Assembly: GCA_020725805.1 (NCBI GenBank)
Contig: DYEF01000031.1
Span: 1 to 29,482 of the forward strand
Length of the DNA: 29,482 nucleotides
Direction: 5' to 3'
From: Bdellovibrio sp.
Lineage (GTDB): Bacteria > Myxococcota > SpSt-1050
A program made the translations under genes and the position numbers. The notes below the pieces were generated by a model that ran no database searches, had not been told where the DNA came from, and saw only the letters and a list, made by a program, of their open reading frames with translations. This document shows, piece by piece, positions 18,002-28,716 of this stretch (its first letter is position 1; every line of letters starts with the position of its first letter).

Positions 18002-19321
18002 TTATCCTTCACTAATGTTCTGAATCATCTGTTTTGCCTCCTTATTCCTGATATCATCCGCGTCAGGAAAATACTTTAGAACATCATTAAGGAGGTCATA
18101 AGCCTTCTTGTAATCCTGGTCATTTATTGCCTTGGATACGGAAAACATAAGTTTATCATATATTGCCTGCAACTCCTTATTAATACCCTTTATCTGTTCC
18201 TGAATTTCGGAATAGAGCTGGGGCTTTACCGGCAGTTTTTCCATATAGTCCCTTGCCTGCATAAAAAAACCTAATGCAAGATAGAGATTCTTGGGTTCTA
18301 TATTTTTCTCCCTGTATTTGTTGTAGCCGAGTTCGGCAAGTTCCTTTGCCTTGTCCATATCCGGTTCAGGAATTACTTCCTGATTTATCTTTACGAAGGT
18401 AATATACCAAGGATTCATCTTCTCGGTATTCCCCTTGTATCTGAATACGATAATGTTATCATCTTTCGAAAGCAGTTCCTTCGGTATCATTACACTGATT
18501 CCCCTCAGAAGATTCTTCCCGGTTACGGGGACAGCTCCAATCTCACTTCCGTTTATCTCTATCATAACATCGTTGTGGTTATAAATGCCGTATGCGGAAA
18601 AACTCAGAAAGAGTTTATTGTCGCTTGGTTCGAATGCAAACTGACACCCCTTGAGGCACTGATAATCGGCTTCCTTATATCCGAACTTCTTGTCGAAATA
18701 TGTGGGTGAAAGGTCAAATACCATAGATGACTGATCCTTCAGGCCGGGTCCCTTGTTTGTAATGACCGGTTTTGCCACAAAAACGAGCAAAAGCAGCAAA
18801 AAAAAAGCGCCGGATGCTATCAGAATCTTTGGCAGAAGCCTCTTTTTTTCCTTTCCTGCCACCACAGCCGCCGCTTTCGGTTTTTCCGACAGGACCGGGG
18901 CCGGATTCGAAGCAGGCTGTTCCTCCGTCATTTCTGATCTGGCCTGAGGATTGCCGGATTTCCCCTTCGATTTCTTCGGAGGCGGAGAGAGTATCTGGGT
19001 ATGTTCCTGATTAATCTGGTCTGAAAGACTCTCTGTAAAACCGAATCTGAATGTGGTATTGCCGATAGTGAATGTATCACCGTCCTTTAGTATCTCCTCG
19101 ACCACTGCCGAACCGTTGAGCAGTGTGCCGTTTCTCGAACCCCTGTCAATAATCTTGAATACCGTCCCTTCCTTCTTTATTACCGAATGCTTTCTCGAGA
19201 CAGAGGGGTCAAATACCACCAGAAGATTCTCCTCTGTCCTTCCGATAGTCAGTTCGTTGGTCTCGACAGAGACTATCTTATCTTTTGCAAAACCCTTGAT
19301 CACCTTTAATTTATATCCCAT
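18002..19321 (-). CDS. Membrane protein with N-terminal FHA domain and beta-sandwich/helical outer part
   Basis: 439 aa. The FHA domain starts at the N-terminus (1-95), with IGR at 26-28, SRKHS (42-46) and GSRNGTLLN (61-69). A Pro/Lys/Ala-rich linker (110-160) leads to one membrane segment (164-184). Residues 200-325 look like a beta-sandwich (SFSAYGIYNHNDVMIEINGS, pattern of a jelly-roll carbohydrate-binding fold) with a Cys pair, CLKGC. Residues 330-439 are helical and TPR-like. The two FHA genes share layout but not their outer domains. Its ATG overlaps the tadC stop by 1 nt, with a GAGG ribosome site inside tadC. The domain layout points to an inner-membrane adaptor of the Tad system; no known name. 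Confidence 0.88.
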   Translation of the reverse strand: MGYKLKVIKGFAKDKIVSVETNELTIGRTEENLLVVFDPSVSRKHSVIKKEGTVFKIIDRGSRNGTLLNGSAVVEEILKDGDTFTIGNTTFRFGFTESLSDQINQEHTQILSPPPKKSKGKSGNPQARSEMTEEQPASNPAPVLSEKPKAAAVVAGKEKKRLLPKILIASGAFFLLLLLVFVAKPVITNKGPGLKDQSSMVFDLSPTYFDKKFGYKEADYQCLKGCQFAFEPSDNKLFLSFSAYGIYNHNDVMIEINGSEIGAVPVTGKNLLRGISVMIPKELLSKDDNIIVFRYKGNTEKMNPWYITFVKINQEVIPEPDMDKAKELAELGYNKYREKNIEPKNLYLALGFFMQARDYMEKLPVKPQLYSEIQEQIKGINKELQAIYDKLMFSVSKAINDQDYKKAYDLLNDVLKYFPDADDIRNKEAKQMIQNISEG

Positions 19322-20202
19322 CAGAAGACCTCACCAAAAAAGAATTGAAAGATTATCGGTCCGAAGAGTACCATAAAAACCGTGGGAAAGATGAATGCTA
19401 TCAGCGGAAACAACATCTTTACAGGTGCCTCCTGTGCCAGTTTCTCCGCCCTCTGTGCCCTCTGGTCCCTCAATGTCTCGGACTGAATCCTCAGGACCTT
19501 GCCCAGACTGGTACCCATTCTGTCTGCCTGAATAAGGGCATTTACAAATGATGTGATTGCCGGCAGACTTATTCTGTCATCCATTATCCTCAGCGCCTCC
19601 TCCCTTGTCCTGCCCACCTTGAGAAGAGAGAGCATATAATTCAGCTCATCAACGAGAGGCCCCTGAATTCCCTTCTCCACAACCTTACTGACAGCAGCCT
19701 GAAAGTCCATACCTGCCTCGACAGATAGCGTCAGAAGGTCGAGGTTATACGGCAGTGCCCTCGTAATCTGTCTATGCCTCTTTGCCACCATATCCCTCAG
19801 CCATATAATAGGATAGAGCGCACCAGCCAGAAGAAAGATTATTGCCCAGAGGACACTGACATTTATCATAATGAAAAAGAGCATACCGACTATGAAGAAT
19901 CCTACAGCCCAGAGTTCCTGCAGCACGATAAAATCCTCTGCAGTCAGATTGCGGGGTTCACCTGCCATTATCAGACGTTTCCGCAGGTATTTCAGATATT
20001 CATCTCCGACAAATATCTTGTTTACTCCGATTATCCTGTTGAAAATATACCGCTTTATACCCTTGGACGGAGATACCTCATCGAGTTCCTTTGCCTCCTC
20101 TATCATAGGTTCGAGATAGTTTCTGTAAACGCCTATAACAATCAGCAGAACAGCGGCCGCAAGCCCTATCGAGGAAATTATCAATACAATCGTTGTTGTC
20201 AT
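19321..20202 (-). CDS. tadC: TadC-like inner-membrane platform protein (type II secretion F family)
   Basis: 293 aa from the ATG at 20202. I chose this over a GTG 9 nt upstream because AGGTGA stands 6 nt before it. Membrane helix at 2-24, a cytoplasmic part, two helices near 87-130, the T2SSF domain with LPYNLDLLTLSVEAGMDF, and a final helix pair with PVKMLFPLIAFIFPTVFMVL. In Tad systems TadB and TadC form the platform turned by the TadA/CpaF ATPase to build Flp pili. It follows tadB directly and overlaps the FHA gene by 1 nt. Confidence 0.92.
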   Translation of the reverse strand: MTTTIVLIISSIGLAAAVLLIVIGVYRNYLEPMIEEAKELDEVSPSKGIKRYIFNRIIGVNKIFVGDEYLKYLRKRLIMAGEPRNLTAEDFIVLQELWAVGFFIVGMLFFIMINVSVLWAIIFLLAGALYPIIWLRDMVAKRHRQITRALPYNLDLLTLSVEAGMDFQAAVSKVVEKGIQGPLVDELNYMLSLLKVGRTREEALRIMDDRISLPAITSFVNALIQADRMGTSLGKVLRIQSETLRDQRAQRAEKLAQEAPVKMLFPLIAFIFPTVFMVLFGPIIFQFFFGEVF

Positions 20203-20211
20203 CTCATTCAC

Positions 20212-21054
20212 CTACACATCGATATCTACGATTTTCCTTATAATCAGAGCACCTATAACCTCCATAACAAGTATGGCAAAGATAAGTGCATAACCAAACC
20301 AGTGCTTGAGCATAGGCTCCATCAGGTCCGGCCTCATCCAGTCCATAACAAACCAGATTACGATCGGCATAATACCTATAATGAACCCCTGCAGTTTTCC
20401 CTGTGCAGTCAGAGCCTTAATTCTACCCTCAATCTTGAATCTCTGCCTTATAGTATTTGCAATATTTTCGAACATCTCGGAGAGATTTCCGCCCATTGTC
20501 TTTGCAATATTGGTCGATGTTATAAAGAGGTCGAGGTCCTCGCACTTTACCCTCTCACCCATATTCTTGAGGGCATCCTCAACTGAGACACCGAGTTTAA
20601 TCTCCTTCAGGGCCAGTCCGAATTCCTGAGATATAGGAGGTTGAAAATCCTGCGCAACCGTCCCCATAGCCTGCTGAAGACTGAGTCCGGCCTTGAGCGC
20701 ATTCGACATATTCTGCAGTGCATCCACGAGTTGTTCGTTGAACTTTCTTACCCTCTTACGAGAATAATATTTTACGAGAATCGAAGGAGTAAAAAAACCC
20801 AGAATGGTGAGAATACCCGTAACAATATATCCGAAAAAGAGGATTCCTATTATGAAGCCCACAACCATAATTGAGAGATTCAGCAGCATCATCTGTCTGG
20901 GGTCGATGAAGAGAAACATATCGGACAGGTCTTCGATCTTGGGGTTGAGATACTTCTCCTGATACTGAAGCATTCCGCTTCTCATAATATCATAGACCAC
21001 CAGCGAGAGAAAAAAGACAGAGCCAAAAATAAGTAAAAATATTATCCCGCTCAT
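20212..21054 (-). CDS. tadB: TadB-like inner-membrane platform protein (type II secretion F family)
   Basis: 280 aa. Helix at 3-23, two helices around 56-95, the T2SSF domain with ALQNMSNALKAGLSLQQAM and ALKEIKLGVSVEDALKNMGE, then helices at about 221-236 and 252-272. The second conserved half-motif, STNIAKTMGGNLSEMFENIA, is present. It should be the platform partner of TadC. The ATG overlaps the cpaB stop by 4 nt (ATGA), and tadC follows at once. In complete tad loci the secretin, CpaE and CpaF genes usually lie between cpaB and tadB; here they are missing. Confidence 0.92.
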   Translation of the reverse strand: MSGIIFLLIFGSVFFLSLVVYDIMRSGMLQYQEKYLNPKIEDLSDMFLFIDPRQMMLLNLSIMVVGFIIGILFFGYIVTGILTILGFFTPSILVKYYSRKRVRKFNEQLVDALQNMSNALKAGLSLQQAMGTVAQDFQPPISQEFGLALKEIKLGVSVEDALKNMGERVKCEDLDLFITSTNIAKTMGGNLSEMFENIANTIRQRFKIEGRIKALTAQGKLQGFIIGIMPIVIWFVMDWMRPDLMEPMLKHWFGYALIFAILVMEVIGALIIRKIVDIDV

Positions 21055-21842
21055 CTTCCGGACTTTACCACCTCAATAAATGTTCCGGACCTGATCTTCG
21101 AGAGTTCCTTCGTCAGGTCACCCTGAATTACCATCTCAAGTGTAATTCGTTTCCGCTCTGCCTGCTGTGAGAGGTCGTCAGGATTTCTTAGCGTGAGATA
21201 GAGAGAACCCATCTCCTGTGCAAGCAGGATTATCTCGGCCTCCTCCGGAAGGACAAGCAAAGTTACATTCCCGTAATTCCGTTCATTTTCCGGTATAAGG
21301 TTGATATTCGATGCCGGAGTAATACGACCGGTTGCGAGCACGAGTATGTTCTGAAGAAGGGTCGATACTATAGTGTTGTTGCTCGAGGGGTCTCTGAATG
21401 CACCGAGAATATCCACATGGTCGTTTGGTCTTATCCAGTTTCCGACTGCCGATTCCTGATTGACCCTTACGGTAATCGCCCTGCCCCTCTTCTGAACTAT
21501 ACTGGATAGTTTTTCAAATCCGTGACTCTCCTGAAAGTGGAACCACATAAGAGGGTCTCCCTCCTTGAGATTCACTACAACGGTCTGACCTATTATTCTG
21601 TCGAGGTCCTTCTCCCTGATGGTGCTCTTTGTTACAAATAATTCCGGGACAGACCTCTTGGCAAGCATATCGACCTCAAGGGCCGTTCCCTCGGTTATGT
21701 CCTGAGCCGCTACGATTATCTCTCTTAGGTTCCAGCCTCTCTTTATCTCCCTCTCCTTTGCCTTCAGGGCAAACATAGACATAAGACCGGCAAACAAACC
21801 CAGTACAATTCCAATAACCAGCGGAATCTTGCCTTTTAACAT
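21051..21842 (-). CDS. cpaB: Flp pilus assembly protein CpaB/RcpC
   Basis: 263 aa from the ATG at 21842, which has a perfect AGGAGG 5 nt upstream; an earlier ATG at 21887 has no such site and would put 15 extra residues before the membrane segment. One N-terminal helix (5-25), then a SAF domain (IIVAAQDITEGTALEVDMLA, about 42-105), then the RcpC/CpaB domain (RAITVRVNQESAVGNWIRPN, DHVDILGAF). The family works in the periplasm with the secretin of the Tad pilus. It is the first gene of a seven-gene operon ending with a sigma/anti-sigma pair. Confidence 0.93.
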   Translation of the reverse strand: MLKGKIPLVIGIVLGLFAGLMSMFALKAKEREIKRGWNLREIIVAAQDITEGTALEVDMLAKRSVPELFVTKSTIREKDLDRIIGQTVVVNLKEGDPLMWFHFQESHGFEKLSSIVQKRGRAITVRVNQESAVGNWIRPNDHVDILGAFRDPSSNNTIVSTLLQNILVLATGRITPASNINLIPENERNYGNVTLLVLPEEAEIILLAQEMGSLYLTLRNPDDLSQQAERKRITLEMVIQGDLTKELSKIRSGTFIEVVKSGR

Positions 21843-21859
21843 TTTATCCTCCTCAGCCC

Positions 21860-21881
21860 GGCAGATATAATTATTTCTGCC
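21860..21881 (-). promoter_or_regulatory. 22-bp near-perfect palindrome in the cpaB leader (operator or hairpin)
   Basis: GGCAGA at one end and TCTGCC at the other, with the inner ATAATTAT also symmetric; only one of eleven pairs (T/T) is broken. It lies between the predicted transcription start (about 21890) and the ribosome site (21848-21853). It could be a repressor operator or an RNA hairpin controlling translation. There is no T-run after it, so it is not a terminator. Confidence 0.55.
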
Positions 21882-21896
21882 CTGCAAGTTCGCAAT

Positions 21897-22007: not shown

Positions 22008-23240
22008 CTATTCCTCTTTACCTATTATTGTCCTGAGTTCTATATAGGCACCATAGGAAGGGGCATACGGACCCGACATATTCAGTGCAACAAAAGAGGT
22101 ATTGAGTGTAATAAGACCTTTTTTGAATTCAAAAATAAGACCTGCGTCCAGTTCATCAGAGGCATTCTGTGCCGTATAATCCGTGCTCTGGATATAATAA
22201 TTGGCAAAAGGCTTCAAAAACGGCAGAATCTCCCACGAGAATTTAATCTCACCTATATGACCCTGCCTTAATGAATATCTCTTCAAGAACCCCCAGCTCA
22301 GGTTTTCATAAACAGGATTAATTGCCTTTTCCTCGACATCATTCAGGACCGTTGCAGTCCCGAGAGTAAGCAGAGGTTCTCTTTCGGAGACGGGTATGTG
22401 TAACCTGAGTTCGGAGACAATTCCGAAGACATTGCTATTTATCTCACTGCCTCTGCTATGAATCTTTGCAGGTATAATAACTACCGGTTCTATCACATAA
22501 GAGAGTCTCTTCCTGATAACAGGTCCTTTTGCATATACAGAAAACGAATTACCCTGCAGTTCCTCAAAGGACGGATGAGAATATATGTAAAGAATCTGCA
22601 ATTGATGAGGTCTGAAAATCTTGAGACTGCCCTTAAGTCCCGCAATATAATTTCTGAAATCAGAAGATATTGTCTTCCAGCCTTCGGTCTGTGAGGTATA
22701 TTTTATCCAGAGACAGTTTGAGGTACTCCTGAGTAACCAGTTGTGCGTTACACCCCACAAAAGAGAGATTTCGAAATCCTTATCCTTATAGCCTCCTTCA
22801 ATCCCGATAAATCTCTCGTCCAGCAGAGCCGCTGTTCCGAACTGAAATATCTGAAGTCCCGCATTTGTAAAAAAATGTTCCGAATCATACCCGACATACC
22901 CCTGCCAGGGCCTTCCTGAAAAACCGTTATTCTCGGTCCATCCGGGATTCTTGTATCTGAGTTCTCCTTCCACAACTACAGAAAGTTCACTTACAGGATA
23001 ATAAGTCATCGAGAGTCTAAGACCGCCGAAATAGTTGTTGTCAAACTCCTCTACTCCCGATACCGGCAGATTCTCCCCCACATCCACACCGAGATAAAAA
23101 ATCCTTATCTCTGCACCCAGAGAGAGATTGTCGGTAATGTCAAAATTATGTGCATTCAGTTTAGAAGGACACTCCCTCGCGACTGCAGGAAAACTCCACA
23201 ACAGGAGAATACAAAACAGCAAATACCTGAACCTACTCAT
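22008..23240 (-). CDS. Outer-membrane beta-barrel protein candidate, unknown function
   Basis: 410 aa. Signal peptide 1-22 (LLFCILLLWSFPAVA, then RECPSK). The rest has no hydrophobic helix but many alternating strands of 9-12 residues with aromatic belts (YFGGLRLSMTYYPVSELSVV, QLQILYIYSHPSF, LNTSFVALNMSG, YGAYIELRTIIG). This is the pattern of a barrel of roughly 16-20 strands, although the last residue is Glu and not the usual aromatic. It resembles porin-like or transport proteins but no family is certain. It is the last gene of a four-gene unit, 3 nt after the two-domain cytochrome gene, so it may form the outer-membrane part of that system. No ribosome site is close to the ATG; translational coupling is likely. 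Confidence 0.7.
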   Translation of the reverse strand: MSRFRYLLFCILLLWSFPAVARECPSKLNAHNFDITDNLSLGAEIRIFYLGVDVGENLPVSGVEEFDNNYFGGLRLSMTYYPVSELSVVVEGELRYKNPGWTENNGFSGRPWQGYVGYDSEHFFTNAGLQIFQFGTAALLDERFIGIEGGYKDKDFEISLLWGVTHNWLLRSTSNCLWIKYTSQTEGWKTISSDFRNYIAGLKGSLKIFRPHQLQILYIYSHPSFEELQGNSFSVYAKGPVIRKRLSYVIEPVVIIPAKIHSRGSEINSNVFGIVSELRLHIPVSEREPLLTLGTATVLNDVEEKAINPVYENLSWGFLKRYSLRQGHIGEIKFSWEILPFLKPFANYYIQSTDYTAQNASDELDAGLIFEFKKGLITLNTSFVALNMSGPYAPSYGAYIELRTIIGKEE

Positions 23241-23243
23241 AAT

Positions 23244-24323
23244 CTAATTGTTCTTTGCCCCCTCTTTTACCCATTTCAGGAAGAGATTATACTTTGTGCT
23301 TCCTTTCGGCCATTTAATCGGATGATTCGCTCCTCCTGCCGCCCACCATAAAAATCCGTAAGATGCTTCCGGGTCGTTAATATCTACATATCTCATTACC
23401 TCAGGATAATCAGCTGTCGTACCTGTAAGTTTAACCCCATACTGGCCTGCATAATGACAGCTGCTGCAGTCAGACTTAATTAACGGAACTATCTGTTTGC
23501 TAAAGGATACTGTCGTGCCACCTGTGTCAGCTCCGGCATCAAACCCCGAATCATATCCGGTATCCACACCGATATCCCTTATGCCTGAATCATAACCAGT
23601 ATCATTTGTTCCATAATCGAATCCGGTATCGGTTATTCCGTAATCATATCCGGCATCGGTAACACTATCCACTATGGCTATATCTGCAGATGTATCCGGA
23701 CCATAATCCTGTGTTGATATATCTGATGACAATACATCGGAAGTGGCATCGGTAATCTCCCCGGCATCTTCGACAGTTCCGGAACATATCCCAAAGAATG
23801 ATTCAGTGCAGTTGTTGTCATTTGCACACAGACCCTTACCCTCTTCGTCAATAAAGCATTTGCTTACAGTAACCACACTCAGATCCGGACAGACACAGGC
23901 AATCTCACTGCACTCCTCATCTGACTGACACTCCCCGAGATTCTCATCAAGACAGTTGAGTCTTGCCCCGTTTGAGACCCAGTTATAAAATGCCGTATAT
24001 TCCTTAGAGCCTTCTCTCCATATCCTTGGGTGCTTCTTGTGACCGGTGGCATACAAAAGAAAGAGACTATTCCCGGGTTCGTTTGTATCACAGTATGCAA
24101 CAATGGTGTTATAATCGGAAATACTGCCGGTTAACCTGAAATTATATTCACCGTTTTCGTGGCAGCTTGAACAATCCCTCTTTACAAGAGGTTGAATATC
24201 CTTTTCAAAACAGGGATCCCGGTAATCTATATCCAGAAAGACGTCATTACAGTTGAGCCAGAATACAAGAGAGAATACCGAAATAAGAATGATAACAGGA
24301 AAAATAGACCTGCCTAATAACAT
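23244..24323 (-). CDS. Envelope protein with two duplicated CxxCH cytochrome-type domains
   Basis: 359 aa. The N-terminal hydrophobic stretch (8-24) ends in WLNC; Cys25 could be lipidated although Asn at -1 is unusual. Domain A (about 36-122) and domain B (about 274-357) are clear duplicates: DCSSCH at 50-55 and 285-290, then LTG, then GHKKHPRIWREGSKEYTAFY and GGANHPIKWPKGSTKYNLFL. C-x2-C-H is the heme c attachment motif, and the small domains resemble planctomycete-type cytochrome c domains; the conserved His-Pro (98-99, 334-335) could supply the distal ligand. Between them lie a Cys-rich segment (124-180) and an Asp/Thr/Gly/Tyr repeat linker (222-268). A diheme protein at the membrane surface is the best reading. 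13 nt after the small protein gene. Confidence 0.8.
   Translation of the reverse strand: MLLGRSIFPVIILISVFSLVFWLNCNDVFLDIDYRDPCFEKDIQPLVKRDCSSCHENGEYNFRLTGSISDYNTIVAYCDTNEPGNSLFLLYATGHKKHPRIWREGSKEYTAFYNWVSNGARLNCLDENLGECQSDEECSEIACVCPDLSVVTVSKCFIDEEGKGLCANDNNCTESFFGICSGTVEDAGEITDATSDVLSSDISTQDYGPDTSADIAIVDSVTDAGYDYGITDTGFDYGTNDTGYDSGIRDIGVDTGYDSGFDAGADTGGTTVSFSKQIVPLIKSDCSSCHYAGQYGVKLTGTTADYPEVMRYVDINDPEASYGFLWWAAGGANHPIKWPKGSTKYNLFLKWVKEGAKNN
23520..23660 (-). repeat. Degenerate Asp-Thr-Gly-Tyr-Asp repeat in the cytochrome linker
   Basis: Codes for residues 222-268: units such as DAGYDYGIT, DTGFDYGTN and DTGYDSGIR, about 9 residues each. It is an extended acidic spacer between the two cytochrome domains. 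Confidence 0.75.
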
Positions 24324-24336
24324 ATTATATTATTTT

Positions 24337-24696
24337 TTACTCTGTAACTTTAATCTTTCCTTCGCTTACACCCTTCTTACTGCACTCTCTCCAGACCCTT
24401 ACCTCCCCCTCTTTCTCGGTCAGCTCTACTTCTATCTCATTCTTGAACAGGCCGGGCTTCTCCTTCTTCCAGCCACTCTCCTTAATCTTTTTCACACCTT
24501 TGTAGTCTACATTGACATCATCATCTGCAAGTACACACTTCTTATGCTCCCACTTCACAACAGCAGTAACCTTGGCCTTCTTTGCTTCTGCCTTGACCTT
24601 ATCACCCTGTTCAAATGTTATCTCACAGGCAAAAAGTCTTCCGCCGGCAACAAACGCAATAATAATAAAAGTAATCGCAAACAGGATTTTTTTCAT
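24337..24696 (-). CDS. Small secreted lysine-rich protein, unknown function
   Basis: 119 aa, start ATG with GGGAGG 7 nt upstream. Signal peptide 1-23 (ILFAITFIIIAFVAGGRLFA); the mature protein begins with CEITFEQG. If the Cys24 after the Ala is lipidated it would be a lipoprotein, but the box is poor. The mature part is about 95 residues, very rich in Lys, Glu and Val, with Cys24, Cys54 and Cys104 and the stretch VKWEHKKCVLADDDVNVDYK, suggesting a beta fold. No family recognised. It lies between the membrane ferredoxin (15-nt gap) and the CxxCH protein (13-nt gap) and so probably serves the same system. His-Lys-Lys-Cys could be a metal site; this is a guess. Confidence 0.75.
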   Translation of the reverse strand: MKKILFAITFIIIAFVAGGRLFACEITFEQGDKVKAEAKKAKVTAVVKWEHKKCVLADDDVNVDYKGVKKIKESGWKKEKPGLFKNEIEVELTEKEGEVRVWRECSKKGVSEGKIKVTE

Positions 24697-24711
24697 AATA
24701 AGCCTCCCTGA

Positions 24712-25620
24712 CTATTTTGATTCAGTATTTTTATTTTGGATTCCATAACCAAATGTGATGCACTCCTTTGCACAGGACTTCTCACAATTCCTGCATATTA
24801 TACACTCCAAATCATCTATTGTTTCACATTTATTTACATCTTTATATATTGCATCGACCGGGCAGTTCTTTTCACACCTCTTGCAGCCTGTACAATCGGA
24901 CTTCTTTACCACTCCCATTTTAATCAGGCTGATTTTATTGATTATACCCAGAAGAGCCCCCTCCGGACAGAAATAACGGCAATAGGGACGACTTATGAAT
25001 ATACTGAAAATAAGCCATAAGCTTAGCCAGATTATCATTATAACCGACCCGTCCATATTAAAAAGTACATGGAAGGGACCAATATGTTCAAATAGTTTGA
25101 AATCTCCGAAGAGTGTTGCTGTTATGAGGGCAATCAGCAGAACGAACTTAAGCTTTTTGAGAATTTTATCCAGTTTCCCGGAAATTTTTATGTTAAAATC
25201 AGGTCTATAGATATACTCCTGAACTATACCCTTTGGACAAATCCAGCTGCAGTAGTATCTTGAAAATAGAAGTGCGGTTATTATAAAAACCCCGATTTTT
25301 ATAGCATACATTGCGACGGGTCTGTGGTTGACAAGGGCAGAAATCATAAACTCAAGTGCCCTCGGTATGCGTGGACAGGACATCTGCAGAAATCCGAACA
25401 TAGCAAGAGAGGCAAGCATCACAAGAGGTCGCAGAAATTCACTCTTCGGATAATGAAAGAGAAGGGAAGGGATAACGAGCATAAACATCAGAAAGAGCTG
25501 ATAATCCAGATTCCAGAACTTGACACCTGATATTGGCAAAAAAGGGAGAGAAAATGCTGTAATTACAAACAGATATGATAAGAACCGCAGGACGCCATAT
25601 TTTTTAGAACCAGCCAGCAT
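24712..25620 (-). CDS. NapH/MauN-like membrane polyferredoxin with two 4Fe-4S clusters
   Basis: 302 aa. Five or six membrane helices (about 12-30, 38-56, 66-82, 103-120, 158-172, 193-212). Two cytoplasmic-side motifs, YYCSWICPKG (122-131) and YCRYFCPEGALLG (213-225), are the C-x3-C-P signatures of the NapH/NosR/CcoG group. The C-terminus holds a ferredoxin domain: Cys243, 246, 249, 253 (CTGCKRCEKNCP) and Cys273, 276, 279, 283 (CIICRNCEKSC). The family passes electrons between the quinone pool or ferredoxin and periplasmic partners. No FMN-binding domain of the NosR kind is present. First gene of a four-gene leftward unit with no nitrate or nitrous-oxide reductase nearby. There is no ribosome site before the ATG and the predicted leader is very short. 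Confidence 0.9.
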   Translation of the reverse strand: MLAGSKKYGVLRFLSYLFVITAFSLPFLPISGVKFWNLDYQLFLMFMLVIPSLLFHYPKSEFLRPLVMLASLAMFGFLQMSCPRIPRALEFMISALVNHRPVAMYAIKIGVFIITALLFSRYYCSWICPKGIVQEYIYRPDFNIKISGKLDKILKKLKFVLLIALITATLFGDFKLFEHIGPFHVLFNMDGSVIMIIWLSLWLIFSIFISRPYCRYFCPEGALLGIINKISLIKMGVVKKSDCTGCKRCEKNCPVDAIYKDVNKCETIDDLECIICRNCEKSCAKECITFGYGIQNKNTESK

Positions 25621-25632
25621 AATCGGGGGCTT

Positions 25633-25658
25633 TTAATACGGTTTTCCGAACTTGTCAA
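25633..25658 (-). promoter_or_regulatory. Candidate promoter of the polyferredoxin-cytochrome operon, near-leaderless
   Basis: On the minus strand a perfect TTGACA (25653-25658) is followed after 14 nt by TATTAA (25633-25638), or after 17 nt by TAAAAG. Either would start transcription within about 10 nt of the ATG at 25620, which has no ribosome site. Spacing is not ideal, so the assignment is tentative. Confidence 0.38.
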
Positions 25659-25744
25659 ACAGAAATTTTGAACCTGCCGGAGATACTAAAGATTATTTAA
25701 TTAACCACAAAACCGGTTTCCGTTATTCTTTATACAGGAATATC

Positions 25745-25773
25745 TTGCCTAATTACACTTTTATTTGTATAAA
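25745..25773 (+). promoter_or_regulatory. Promoter of the DUF4159-vWA operon with a very short leader
   Basis: TTGCCT (25745-25750), exactly 17 nt, and TATAAA (25768-25773). Transcription would start near 25780, only about 10 nt before the ATG at 25790, and no ribosome site is seen. This supports the later start for the DUF4159 gene and a nearly leaderless message. Confidence 0.5.
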
Positions 25774-25789
25774 TCCGTTGCCACTGACT

Positions 25790-26524
25790 ATGAAGAGACG
25801 AGAATTCATAAAAGCATTTCTGACTATTCCCTTTCTGAAGGATATTACAGCCCTGCTCGACTATTCCAGATTCACCGCTGCCAAGCTCAAATACAACGGC
25901 AACTGGAATCTGAGAGATAACGCCCTAAGAAGAATAATGTATGAGGTAAACAGAAGAACATCCATCTCCTGTTCGAAGGAGCCCGCAGTCGTTGAACCGT
26001 CTGATACCGGAATATTCAACTACCCCTTTCTTGCAATAAGCGGCGACAGGGCTCTGCCGGATTTCACCCCGATATCGATAGCAAGACTCAAAAGATTCAT
26101 CAACAAAGGCGGTTTTATCTTTGCCGATTCCTCCGAAGAAAATTCCGATGAATTTTACAAATCAGTAGCAAAACTTGCAAACCAGATAATTCCCGGCACG
26201 GAATTTACTGTGCTCGAAAACAACAACGTTATATACAAGACCTTTTATATGCTTACAAAAAGTTACGGAAGACTTAATAAGAAGGATTATTTCGAAGGTA
26301 TAATATATGAAAACAGAATTGTTCTTCTCTACTCACACAACGACCTTCTGGGCGCTCTCGAGAGAGACGAACTAGGTAATTACAAGTATTCAATTACCGA
26401 CGAGAGCACAAGAAGGGAACTCTCGATAAGGACTGCTGTCAATATAGTAATGTATTCCCTCACCGTGGATTACAAGGATGACCAGGTTCATCATCCCTTC
26501 TTCAAGGAAAAGAGAAGAAGATGA
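25790..26524 (+). CDS. DUF4159 protein with twin-arginine-like N-terminus
   Basis: 244 aa from the ATG at 25790. Open frame extends upstream to a TTG at 25652, but that part overlaps the promoter and lacks family features. The start MKRREFIKAFLTIPFLKDI carries RRxFxK followed by a modest hydrophobic stretch, like a Tat signal or anchor. The rest fits DUF4159: KLKYNGNWNLRDNALRRIMY, YEVNRRTSI, FNYPFLAISGD, RLKRFINKGGFIFADSS, FPG-like IIPGTEF and RTAVNIVMYSLT. Such proteins usually sit next to large vWA/GATase-like membrane proteins, MoxR ATPases and DUF58 proteins. Function unknown. It overlaps the next gene by 4 nt (ATGA). Confidence 0.87.
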   Translation: MKRREFIKAFLTIPFLKDITALLDYSRFTAAKLKYNGNWNLRDNALRRIMYEVNRRTSISCSKEPAVVEPSDTGIFNYPFLAISGDRALPDFTPISIARLKRFINKGGFIFADSSEENSDEFYKSVAKLANQIIPGTEFTVLENNNVIYKTFYMLTKSYGRLNKKDYFEGIIYENRIVLLYSHNDLLGALERDELGNYKYSITDESTRRELSIRTAVNIVMYSLTVDYKDDQVHHPFFKEKRRR

Positions 26525-28716
26525 ATAATCTGCTTACATCATACAGCATCGAATTTAATCCGCCCTTAAACAACGTTGTTTCATTTATTATCGCCGTCTC
26601 TATCCTTCTGCTCACAGTCTATTCCGTCAGAAATCTGCTCCCTGACCTGCCAAACCGGGTCAGACTATTCCTTGCCTCCCTGAGAATCATTGCAGTCCTC
26701 TTCTTTCTCTTTATATTCTTTCAGCCCTCAATAGTACAAACGACATATTATCTGGAAAAAGATACAATCGCGCTTTTAATCGATGCTTCAAGGTCGATGA
26801 ATTACAAGTCGGATTCCGTATCAAGACTTGATACTGCAAGAGAGATTGCAAAAGGCATTCTTGCAAGAGATGACATCAGAAATGAACACAATATAGTAAC
26901 CTACCTCTTCAGCAAAAATATCTACCTGAACAGTTCTCCGGAAGAGATCAGAGTTATAAACGAAGATACAACGGATATACTCACTTCACTTGAAAATGTC
27001 AGAATTAAGCATCCTGACCTGTCCAGCATAATACTGGTATCCGACGGTGCCGATAATAATCTACTGCTCAATGTCAGGGAAGATTCATCGTCTTTGATAA
27101 AAAGGTTCGCAAAAAATCTTTCTGTGCCTGTTCACACCTTTCTCGCGGCGACAGATAAAAAGACCAATGATATCTCTCTGAGGATTCTCTCATACTCCCC
27201 GGTAGGCTTCATCGGGAAGGAATTCGAAATAAGTGTCAGGTTATCCAACAATTCGGAACTAACCGAATCTGTTCCCCTGACCATTAAGGAAAACGGTGTA
27301 CCCGTATTCTCCGGAAAATACAAAATACCACACAACACATCAAAAGATATTCTGCTTACCCTCTATCCCAGAAACACCGGAAGGAATGTCTATGAGGTTC
27401 TTACTCCCCCGCAGAGCGGTGAAGAATTTACAGAAAACAACAGTGATTTTTTCAGCTCAAAGATAAAAAAGGAGAACCTCAGAATTCTACAGATAACAGG
27501 TTCGGTCTCCTATGATGTCAGATTCCTGAGGCATCTGTTCAAGAAGGCTCCGGATATCGACCTGATTTCATTTTTTATTCTGCGGACACTCGAGAGCGAC
27601 GTCAATGCCCCCGATTCCGAGCTTTCGCTTATCCCGTTTCCGACCGACACCGTAATCAGGGAAAGCCTCTTTGGTTTCGATGTGGTCATCTTTCAGGATT
27701 TCGGCTTTGTACCTTACGGGCTCAATTCCACGTTCTCGGACCTGAACAGTTTCATACGAAAGGGCGGTGCCCTAATATTTTTTACAGGGAACAACTGGTA
27801 CAGACTGATTGGAGATTTCATTACCTTCTTTGACGACTGTATGCCGGCAGTACCGCGTACCGATTATAATGCAATAGAGAATGTTATATACAGACCTGAG
27901 CTAACTCTGGAAGGGAAGACACACCCCGTAACAAGGATTCTCGATTCTCAGGACGAAAACAATCTGTTATTCAAGAACCTCCCCGAACTTCACGGAGTAC
28001 ACCGTCTGAGCAGTATTAAGCCCGGCGCTGTAACCCTTATGACTGCAAAGTCACAGGAGAATCTGCCTGTTCTGCTCATTAACAGATGTGAAAAGGGGAA
28101 GACGGTTTTGATAACAACCGATGAACTCTGGAGATTCTCATTTTCAGAAAAGACACCCGACGAATTCAATCTCTATAACAAACTTATGAACAACCTTCTT
28201 CTCTGGGTCACCGGAGAACCCGACAAGGAAGATATAGTAATCTCTGCCGGCAGAAACAGAAAACCGTCGGAGGAACTAAGAGGCAGATATTCAGGAATCA
28301 GGGCAGAATCCGAAATCTATATGCAGACAGAAGACGGGAGAGTAACAAAAGGCAGAATCGAGGCAGACGGAGAATTTTACTTCGATATATCGAATCTTCC
28401 CGAAGGTCTTCACTCTGCAAGAATCTCCTATAACAATCAGGTCTACAATATATCCTTTTTCAAGAAGAGATCCGACATAGAGATGCAGGAAATAGCACCA
28501 AGACCGGATATCCTTAAGGCATTATCCAAGTATTCCGGAGGCAGATATTTCGGTGATATAAAAGATATAAAGAATCTCAAACCGGAGAAGAAGGAACTAA
28601 AGAGGATTCACACAAAGAGCAGCAGCCCGCTTACAAACAGGGGAATATTTTTCGCACTCCTTATGGCCCTCTTCTTTGCAGAATGGTTTTTCAGAAGAAT
28701 GTACGGACACCAGTAA
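26521..28716 (+). CDS. Large membrane protein with vWA and GATase-like domains (partner of DUF4159)
   Basis: 731 aa. Two N-terminal helices (20-36, 49-68) are followed by a von Willebrand factor A domain (80-215). Its metal-binding MIDAS is intact: DASRS with Asp88, Ser90, Ser92, Thr150/151 and SDG with Asp175. A beta domain (225-310) comes next, then a class-I glutamine-amidotransferase-like fold (320-560) with LRILQITGSVSYDVRFL and FIRKGGALIFFTG; no catalytic Cys-His-Glu triad is evident, so it is probably not an enzyme. A second beta region and one C-terminal helix (703-720) complete it. Homologues sit in MoxR-DUF58-DUF4159 clusters tied to envelope stress or complex assembly. It is coupled to DUF4159 upstream, and its stop abuts the stop of the opposite-strand lipoprotein. 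Confidence 0.9.
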   Translation: MNNLLTSYSIEFNPPLNNVVSFIIAVSILLLTVYSVRNLLPDLPNRVRLFLASLRIIAVLFFLFIFFQPSIVQTTYYLEKDTIALLIDASRSMNYKSDSVSRLDTAREIAKGILARDDIRNEHNIVTYLFSKNIYLNSSPEEIRVINEDTTDILTSLENVRIKHPDLSSIILVSDGADNNLLLNVREDSSSLIKRFAKNLSVPVHTFLAATDKKTNDISLRILSYSPVGFIGKEFEISVRLSNNSELTESVPLTIKENGVPVFSGKYKIPHNTSKDILLTLYPRNTGRNVYEVLTPPQSGEEFTENNSDFFSSKIKKENLRILQITGSVSYDVRFLRHLFKKAPDIDLISFFILRTLESDVNAPDSELSLIPFPTDTVIRESLFGFDVVIFQDFGFVPYGLNSTFSDLNSFIRKGGALIFFTGNNWYRLIGDFITFFDDCMPAVPRTDYNAIENVIYRPELTLEGKTHPVTRILDSQDENNLLFKNLPELHGVHRLSSIKPGAVTLMTAKSQENLPVLLINRCEKGKTVLITTDELWRFSFSEKTPDEFNLYNKLMNNLLLWVTGEPDKEDIVISAGRNRKPSEELRGRYSGIRAESEIYMQTEDGRVTKGRIEADGEFYFDISNLPEGLHSARISYNNQVYNISFFKKRSDIEMQEIAPRPDILKALSKYSGGRYFGDIKDIKNLKPEKKELKRIHTKSSSPLTNRGIFFALLMALFFAEWFFRRMYGHQ

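Follow-up and report, generated by a model that had tools for sequence, protein, structure and literature searches.

Four genes on the minus strand of a 29,482-nucleotide stretch of DNA of Bdellovibrio sp. (contig DYEF01000031.1; hereafter the window) encode a NapH-like polyferredoxin, a small secreted protein, a dihaem-type protein and a probable outer-membrane beta-barrel (Table 1). The module formed by these genes is well supported as an envelope redox module because the small protein and the barrel occur in the same genomes, where their genes are mostly found beside those for iron-sulfur and haem proteins. We give roughly even chances to the proposal that the four gene products work as one envelope electron-transfer unit, in which the NapH-like protein would hand electrons, possibly by way of the periplasmic small protein, to the dihaem lipoprotein at the barrel. 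An envelope electron-transfer module was also the core of the original prediction, and the linkage, the co-occurrence and the Fe-S and CxxCH motifs described below bear it out in part, while its delivery of electrons to the cell surface is something that we only infer, as we do the cofactors, location, direction and terminal acceptor of the module.

Table 1. Genes of the proposed envelope redox module and the basis of their assignment.
Product	Position in window	Strand	Basis
NapH-like inner-membrane polyferredoxin, 302 aa	24712..25620	-	ORF + Fer4_5/Fer4 matches
Small secreted protein, 119 aa	24337..24696	-	ORF, conserved Cys/His, predicted fold
Dihaem-type protein, probable lipoprotein, 359 aa	23244..24323	-	ORF, two CxxCH domains
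410-aa secreted protein, probable outer-membrane beta-barrel	22008..23240	-	ORF, sequence traits

The intergenic gaps along the module, from the NapH-like gene to the barrel gene, are 15, 13 and 3 nt, and the ORF positions match exactly the four closely spaced genes in one direction that had been described before. The earlier identification of the first product as a NapH-like 2x4Fe-4S protein is upheld by its Fer4_5 and Fer4 matches and two C-terminal 4Fe-4S motifs, and the two CSSCH domains reported for the dihaem-type protein are likewise present, both of its CxxCH motifs being CSSCH. The 119-aa and 410-aa proteins have signal-peptide-like segments at their N-termini. The single candidate promoter that had been placed ahead of the module was not recovered, as a sigma-70 consensus scan of the minus strand upstream of position 25620 yielded no promoter-like site. 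Upstream of the module lies a divergent pair of genes (window 25652-28716, plus strand); one encodes a DUF4159 protein whose N-terminus (MKRREF) is twin-arginine-like, the other a large protein of the VWA type. Just downstream, on the same strand as the module, are Flp/Tad pilus-type genes (window 18002-21887, minus strand), among which CpaB/RcpC was called by Pfam and NCBIfam and the rest were assigned by eye.

Searching for the NapH-like protein in 97 relatives revealed two good ones, which are from another family of the same phylum. All four genes are found in the same order and with similar lengths in G041 (JAFCZJ010000009.1, 'Deltaproteobacteria bacterium'), and G030 ('Myxococcales bacterium') has the same four-gene order with a contig break interrupting the NapH-like gene, so that the gene order for which a search in related genomes had been suggested recurs in both. 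A scan of named genomes identified G195 (JAADFL010000106.1), in which the NapH-like, small and dihaem genes are together and the barrel gene is on another contig, beside another Fer4 protein. Neighbours of the G195 barrel gene encode a Fer4_5 protein of 206 aa and a second secreted, strand-rich protein. A profile of the small protein, applied to 377 genomes of the phylum of G195, added G294, G373, G400 and G495. All four proteins are present in G294, where the small and NapH-like genes are divergent from the dihaem and barrel genes. The small, NapH-like and barrel genes of G373 are behind a TetR-like regulator (L030:8512-9105, directly upstream), and the dihaem gene is absent. The G495 cluster consists of the genes for a lipoprotein, a ferredoxin lipoprotein, the barrel and the small protein; the first three are also found on one contig of G400, whose small gene lies close to the beginning of a different contig. 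When the search was extended to the class level around G294, no carriers beyond the two already known were detected. Because the gene content, and often the gene order, recurs in unrelated contexts, the four-gene arrangement is far beyond chance. No description of the four-gene cluster was found in the literature.

In separate profile searches, the small protein and the barrel were identified in identical sets of genomes (3/195 and 5/377), and the same 8 of the 572 genomes searched carry both, scattered among many non-carriers. A marginal 58-residue match in G152 (E 0.006) was left out of the barrel count of 3/195. Five of the sequences in the barrel profile were taken from small-gene neighbourhoods; the G400 barrel had no such origin, and the profile found it. 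The naive co-occurrence p values are 8e-7 for the 195 genomes and 2e-11 for the 377 genomes, with the relatedness of the genomes making the true values less extreme. The pairwise identities of the small protein and those of the barrel are correlated with r = 0.94 over 21 genome pairs; other pairings give correlations of 0.91-0.95 over 10 genome pairs, and that of the dihaem and NapH-like proteins is only 0.59, over 6 pairs. Given the identical genome sets and the r of 0.94, the small protein and the barrel therefore form one linked unit, a constant core around which the redox partners vary. The scattering of homologues without each other, which the original prediction had named as evidence that would count against it, did not materialise for these two proteins. 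The dihaem protein is not obligatory to the module, because three of the eight carrier genomes (G373, G495 and G400) are without it.

In G495 and G400, the barrel adjoins two other lipoproteins in place of the dihaem protein (L029:5383-7843 and L040:7377-9910). One is a ferredoxin lipoprotein with four Fer4 matches; the other contains the invariant motifs GVGCHDG and DxxTGAT and is not recognized by Pfam, which called no FMN-binding domain in it. The DxxTGAT motif resembles the flavin-attachment motif of ApbE targets, [S/T]GA[S/T] (PMC8238504), and an ApbE match is present in both genomes. The DxxTGAT lipoprotein is possibly a divergent flavin-binding protein. This exchange of haem, iron-sulfur and perhaps flavin partners around one barrel favours electron transfer towards the outer membrane, which would explain it best. 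Flavinylation was also considered for the window cluster and rejected, as the cluster has neither FMN_bind nor DUF3570 and no ApbE was found in the window genome (G000).

The NapH-like protein matched Fer4_5 (Pfam, PF12801) with an E-value of 5.5e-18 and 65.1 bits, above the cut-off of 22. It also matched the NapH/MauN models of NCBIfam at 2.8e-26, yet stayed well under their curated cut-offs, which mark NapH proper of the periplasmic nitrate reductase (TIGR02163, 92.6 bits vs. 213; PRK09477, 91.7 vs. 234). Hydropathy analysis predicts about six transmembrane segments and places the two CX3CP motifs and both ferredoxin-type motifs on the side that is positively charged and therefore predicted to face the cytoplasm. 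The C-terminal 4Fe-4S motifs (Cys243/246/249/253 and Cys273/276/279/283) are invariant in an alignment of five sequences, as is Cys82-Pro, which is in a predicted periplasmic loop. NapH-like proteins are known as modular carriers that move electrons across the inner membrane to varied extracytosolic enzymes (PMC8238504).

In the small protein, Cys24, His51, Cys54 and Cys105 are invariant among eight sequences whose identity goes down to about 20%, and Cys24 immediately follows the predicted signal peptide. A fold prediction from three sequences suggests an Ig-like beta-sandwich (pLDDT 79), for which the chains matched in structural comparisons (Foldseek, VIA-align) were all of a generic Ig-like kind and none reached E ≤ 0.001. 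No Pfam or NCBIfam family was above its cut-off. TIGR04292 was dropped as a candidate, as it matched only one of the eight relatives (E 0.003, 16.5 bits vs. 200).

The dihaem-type protein has two CxxCH domains, between which lie a Cys-rich domain and a D/G-rich linker. Invariant in an alignment of five sequences are both CxxCH motifs, one further His in each CxxCH domain (His98-Pro and His334), the Cys-rich middle domain and the Cys that ends the signal peptide. L017 and L027 have a good lipobox, whereas that of the window protein is atypical (WLNC). Library matches of the window protein are weak cytochrome ones: it missed the cut-off of 27 for Cytochrome_CBB3 with 21.7 bits, a cut-off that its G195 relative just reaches, and a PDB profile search gave cytochrome c6 at an uninformative E of about 0.5. 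Haem attachment to this protein is likely. The dihaem profile also gave weak matches at other places in the genomes; these covered mainly the middle part, rich in Cys and in D/G, and were discarded. The window genome encodes other c-type proteins, namely NrfHA, assigned by eye; this NrfHA-like pair (tetrahaem NrfH and NrfA) adjoins a MarR-like regulator (L165:3731-5652, G000:C41). No cytochrome c maturation motif was found in the approximately 51% of the window genome that was read, which proves nothing.

Alternating hydrophobicity, the lack of a transmembrane helix and a C-terminal Phe are traits expected of outer-membrane barrels. The 410-aa protein has 14 amphipathic peaks, compared to 7.8 in shuffled sequences, and 5 of 1000 shuffles reach 14; no 19-residue segment is above 1.42 on the KD scale, which indicates that a transmembrane helix is absent, and two of seven family members end in Phe. 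Cys24 and Cys176 are invariant in the family. The earlier assignment of this protein as a beta-barrel is consistent with these traits and with its signal-peptide-like start, but a fold prediction with two sequences as input gave no usable model; on balance, the protein is likely an outer-membrane beta-barrel. The window barrel had no Pfam match at E ≤ 1 and no NCBIfam or PDB-profile match, and Pfam detected no MtrB-family match either in it or in the six relatives. Two families, that of the small protein and that of the barrel, are without a model in the libraries searched.

In the mechanism that we propose, quinol or a cytoplasmic donor would supply the electrons, and the NapH-like protein would transfer them across the inner membrane. 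The periplasmic step would fall to the small Ig-like protein with its Cys/His set, which may be a carrier based on a metal or on thiols, or else an adaptor for the barrel. The dihaem lipoprotein would be the carrier on the outer-membrane side, held there by the 410-aa barrel. The chain in the dihaem-type modules would run from the donor to the NapH-like protein, possibly to the small protein, and would end at the barrel-held dihaem lipoprotein. Against this mechanism, the genomes compared have no reductase or donor enzyme in common next to the module, and the two haems of one lipoprotein alone cannot span the outer membrane. A further and tentative reading, which we regard as rather doubtful, is that of a conduit without a multihaem wire, in which a constant core of a new barrel family and the Ig-like Cys/His protein would be fed by the NapH-like protein and combined with swappable dihaem or ferredoxin plus flavin-type lipoproteins.

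The strongest rival to the electron-transfer unit is a metal or oxyanion acquisition system, which we consider rather unlikely but a serious contender. The barrel would then be an import channel, the redox lipoproteins would reduce the cargo, the small protein would bind metal with its invariant three Cys and one His, and the NapH-like protein would supply the electrons. Such a role is suggested by two finds in G195: feoB and a DtxR/FeoA fusion gene begin about 400 bp downstream of its NapH-like, small and dihaem genes (L017:10642-13415), and a gene that by eye looks selB-like is some 4.5 kb away from its barrel gene (L021:1945-3861); these iron and selenium neighbours, however, are found in one genome only. 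The iron system FtrABCD likewise contains a NapH-like protein, FtrD. In Geobacter, the porin-like protein ExtI has been linked to the reduction of selenite and tellurite (PMC5877670). Yet no inner-membrane transporter recurs in the modules, and dihaem and ferredoxin partners suit electron transfer better than simple uptake.

A thiol-disulfide relay from Cys82 of the NapH-like protein through the small protein to the two invariant Cys of the barrel, serving the repair or assembly of envelope proteins, would make use of the invariant Cys of all three proteins (one, three and two, respectively). We hold it to be very improbable, given that the small protein is without a CxxC thiol motif, that Pfam identified no thioredoxin-like domain in the cluster and that the haem or ferredoxin partners would be left unexplained. 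It is also hardly to be expected that electrons flow in reverse, with the dihaem lipoprotein gathering them at the outer membrane and the NapH-like protein feeding them into the quinone pool or the cytoplasm. The anatomy of such a module would be identical to that of the outward model, and NapH-like clusters also accompany oxidases (PMC8238504); on the other side, the direction of flow cannot be read from the sequence, and a specific donor enzyme is absent nearby.

Compared with known systems, the proposed electron-transfer unit shares its Fer4_5 membrane protein, two C-terminal 4Fe-4S motifs and modular choice of partners with the NapH-like (PF12801) extracytosolic electron-transfer systems, which include NosR, PceC and NapH (PMC8238504). 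It differs from them in that no Nap, Nos or dehalogenase enzyme adjoins it, that it has no FMN-binding domain and no ApbE was found in the window genome, and that an outer-membrane-type protein and a dihaem protein are added. The FtrABCD ferrous iron system (PMC11966278) is similar in having four components, periplasmic proteins among them. A NapH-like polyferredoxin, FtrD, is a further shared part. An FTR1 permease, a P19-type protein and a cupredoxin, by contrast, were not recognised when the four proteins of the module and its scanned flanking genes were compared with Pfam.

The MtrCAB porin-cytochrome conduit consists of decahaem cytochromes and MtrB (PMC8805035). It has in common with the module that a barrel together with a c-type haem protein is the proposed route of electrons at the outer membrane, and the module may work in a similar way. 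By its sequences, however, the module is not a member of the MtrCAB type, because it has no MtrB family match and no decahaem proteins; just two CxxCH motifs are found in the whole cluster, and its barrel is without a Pfam match. The closest architectural analogue, compared by architecture only, is ExtHIJKL of Geobacter sulfurreducens, which comprises an outer-membrane integral protein, a small periplasmic protein and a lipoprotein and has no outer-membrane multihaem cytochrome (PMC6148476, PMC5877670). These features are shared with the module as proposed here, in contrast to the pentahaem cytochrome and rhodanese lipoprotein of ExtHIJKL and its lack of a NapH-like protein. The outer-membrane electron conduits compared from the literature depend on multihaem cytochromes. 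If our proposal is correct, the rare yet strictly co-occurring barrel and small protein, as a core with exchangeable dihaem, Fe-S or flavin-type partners, would represent another design for passing electrons to or from the outer membrane and would suggest a function for two protein families absent from the libraries searched.
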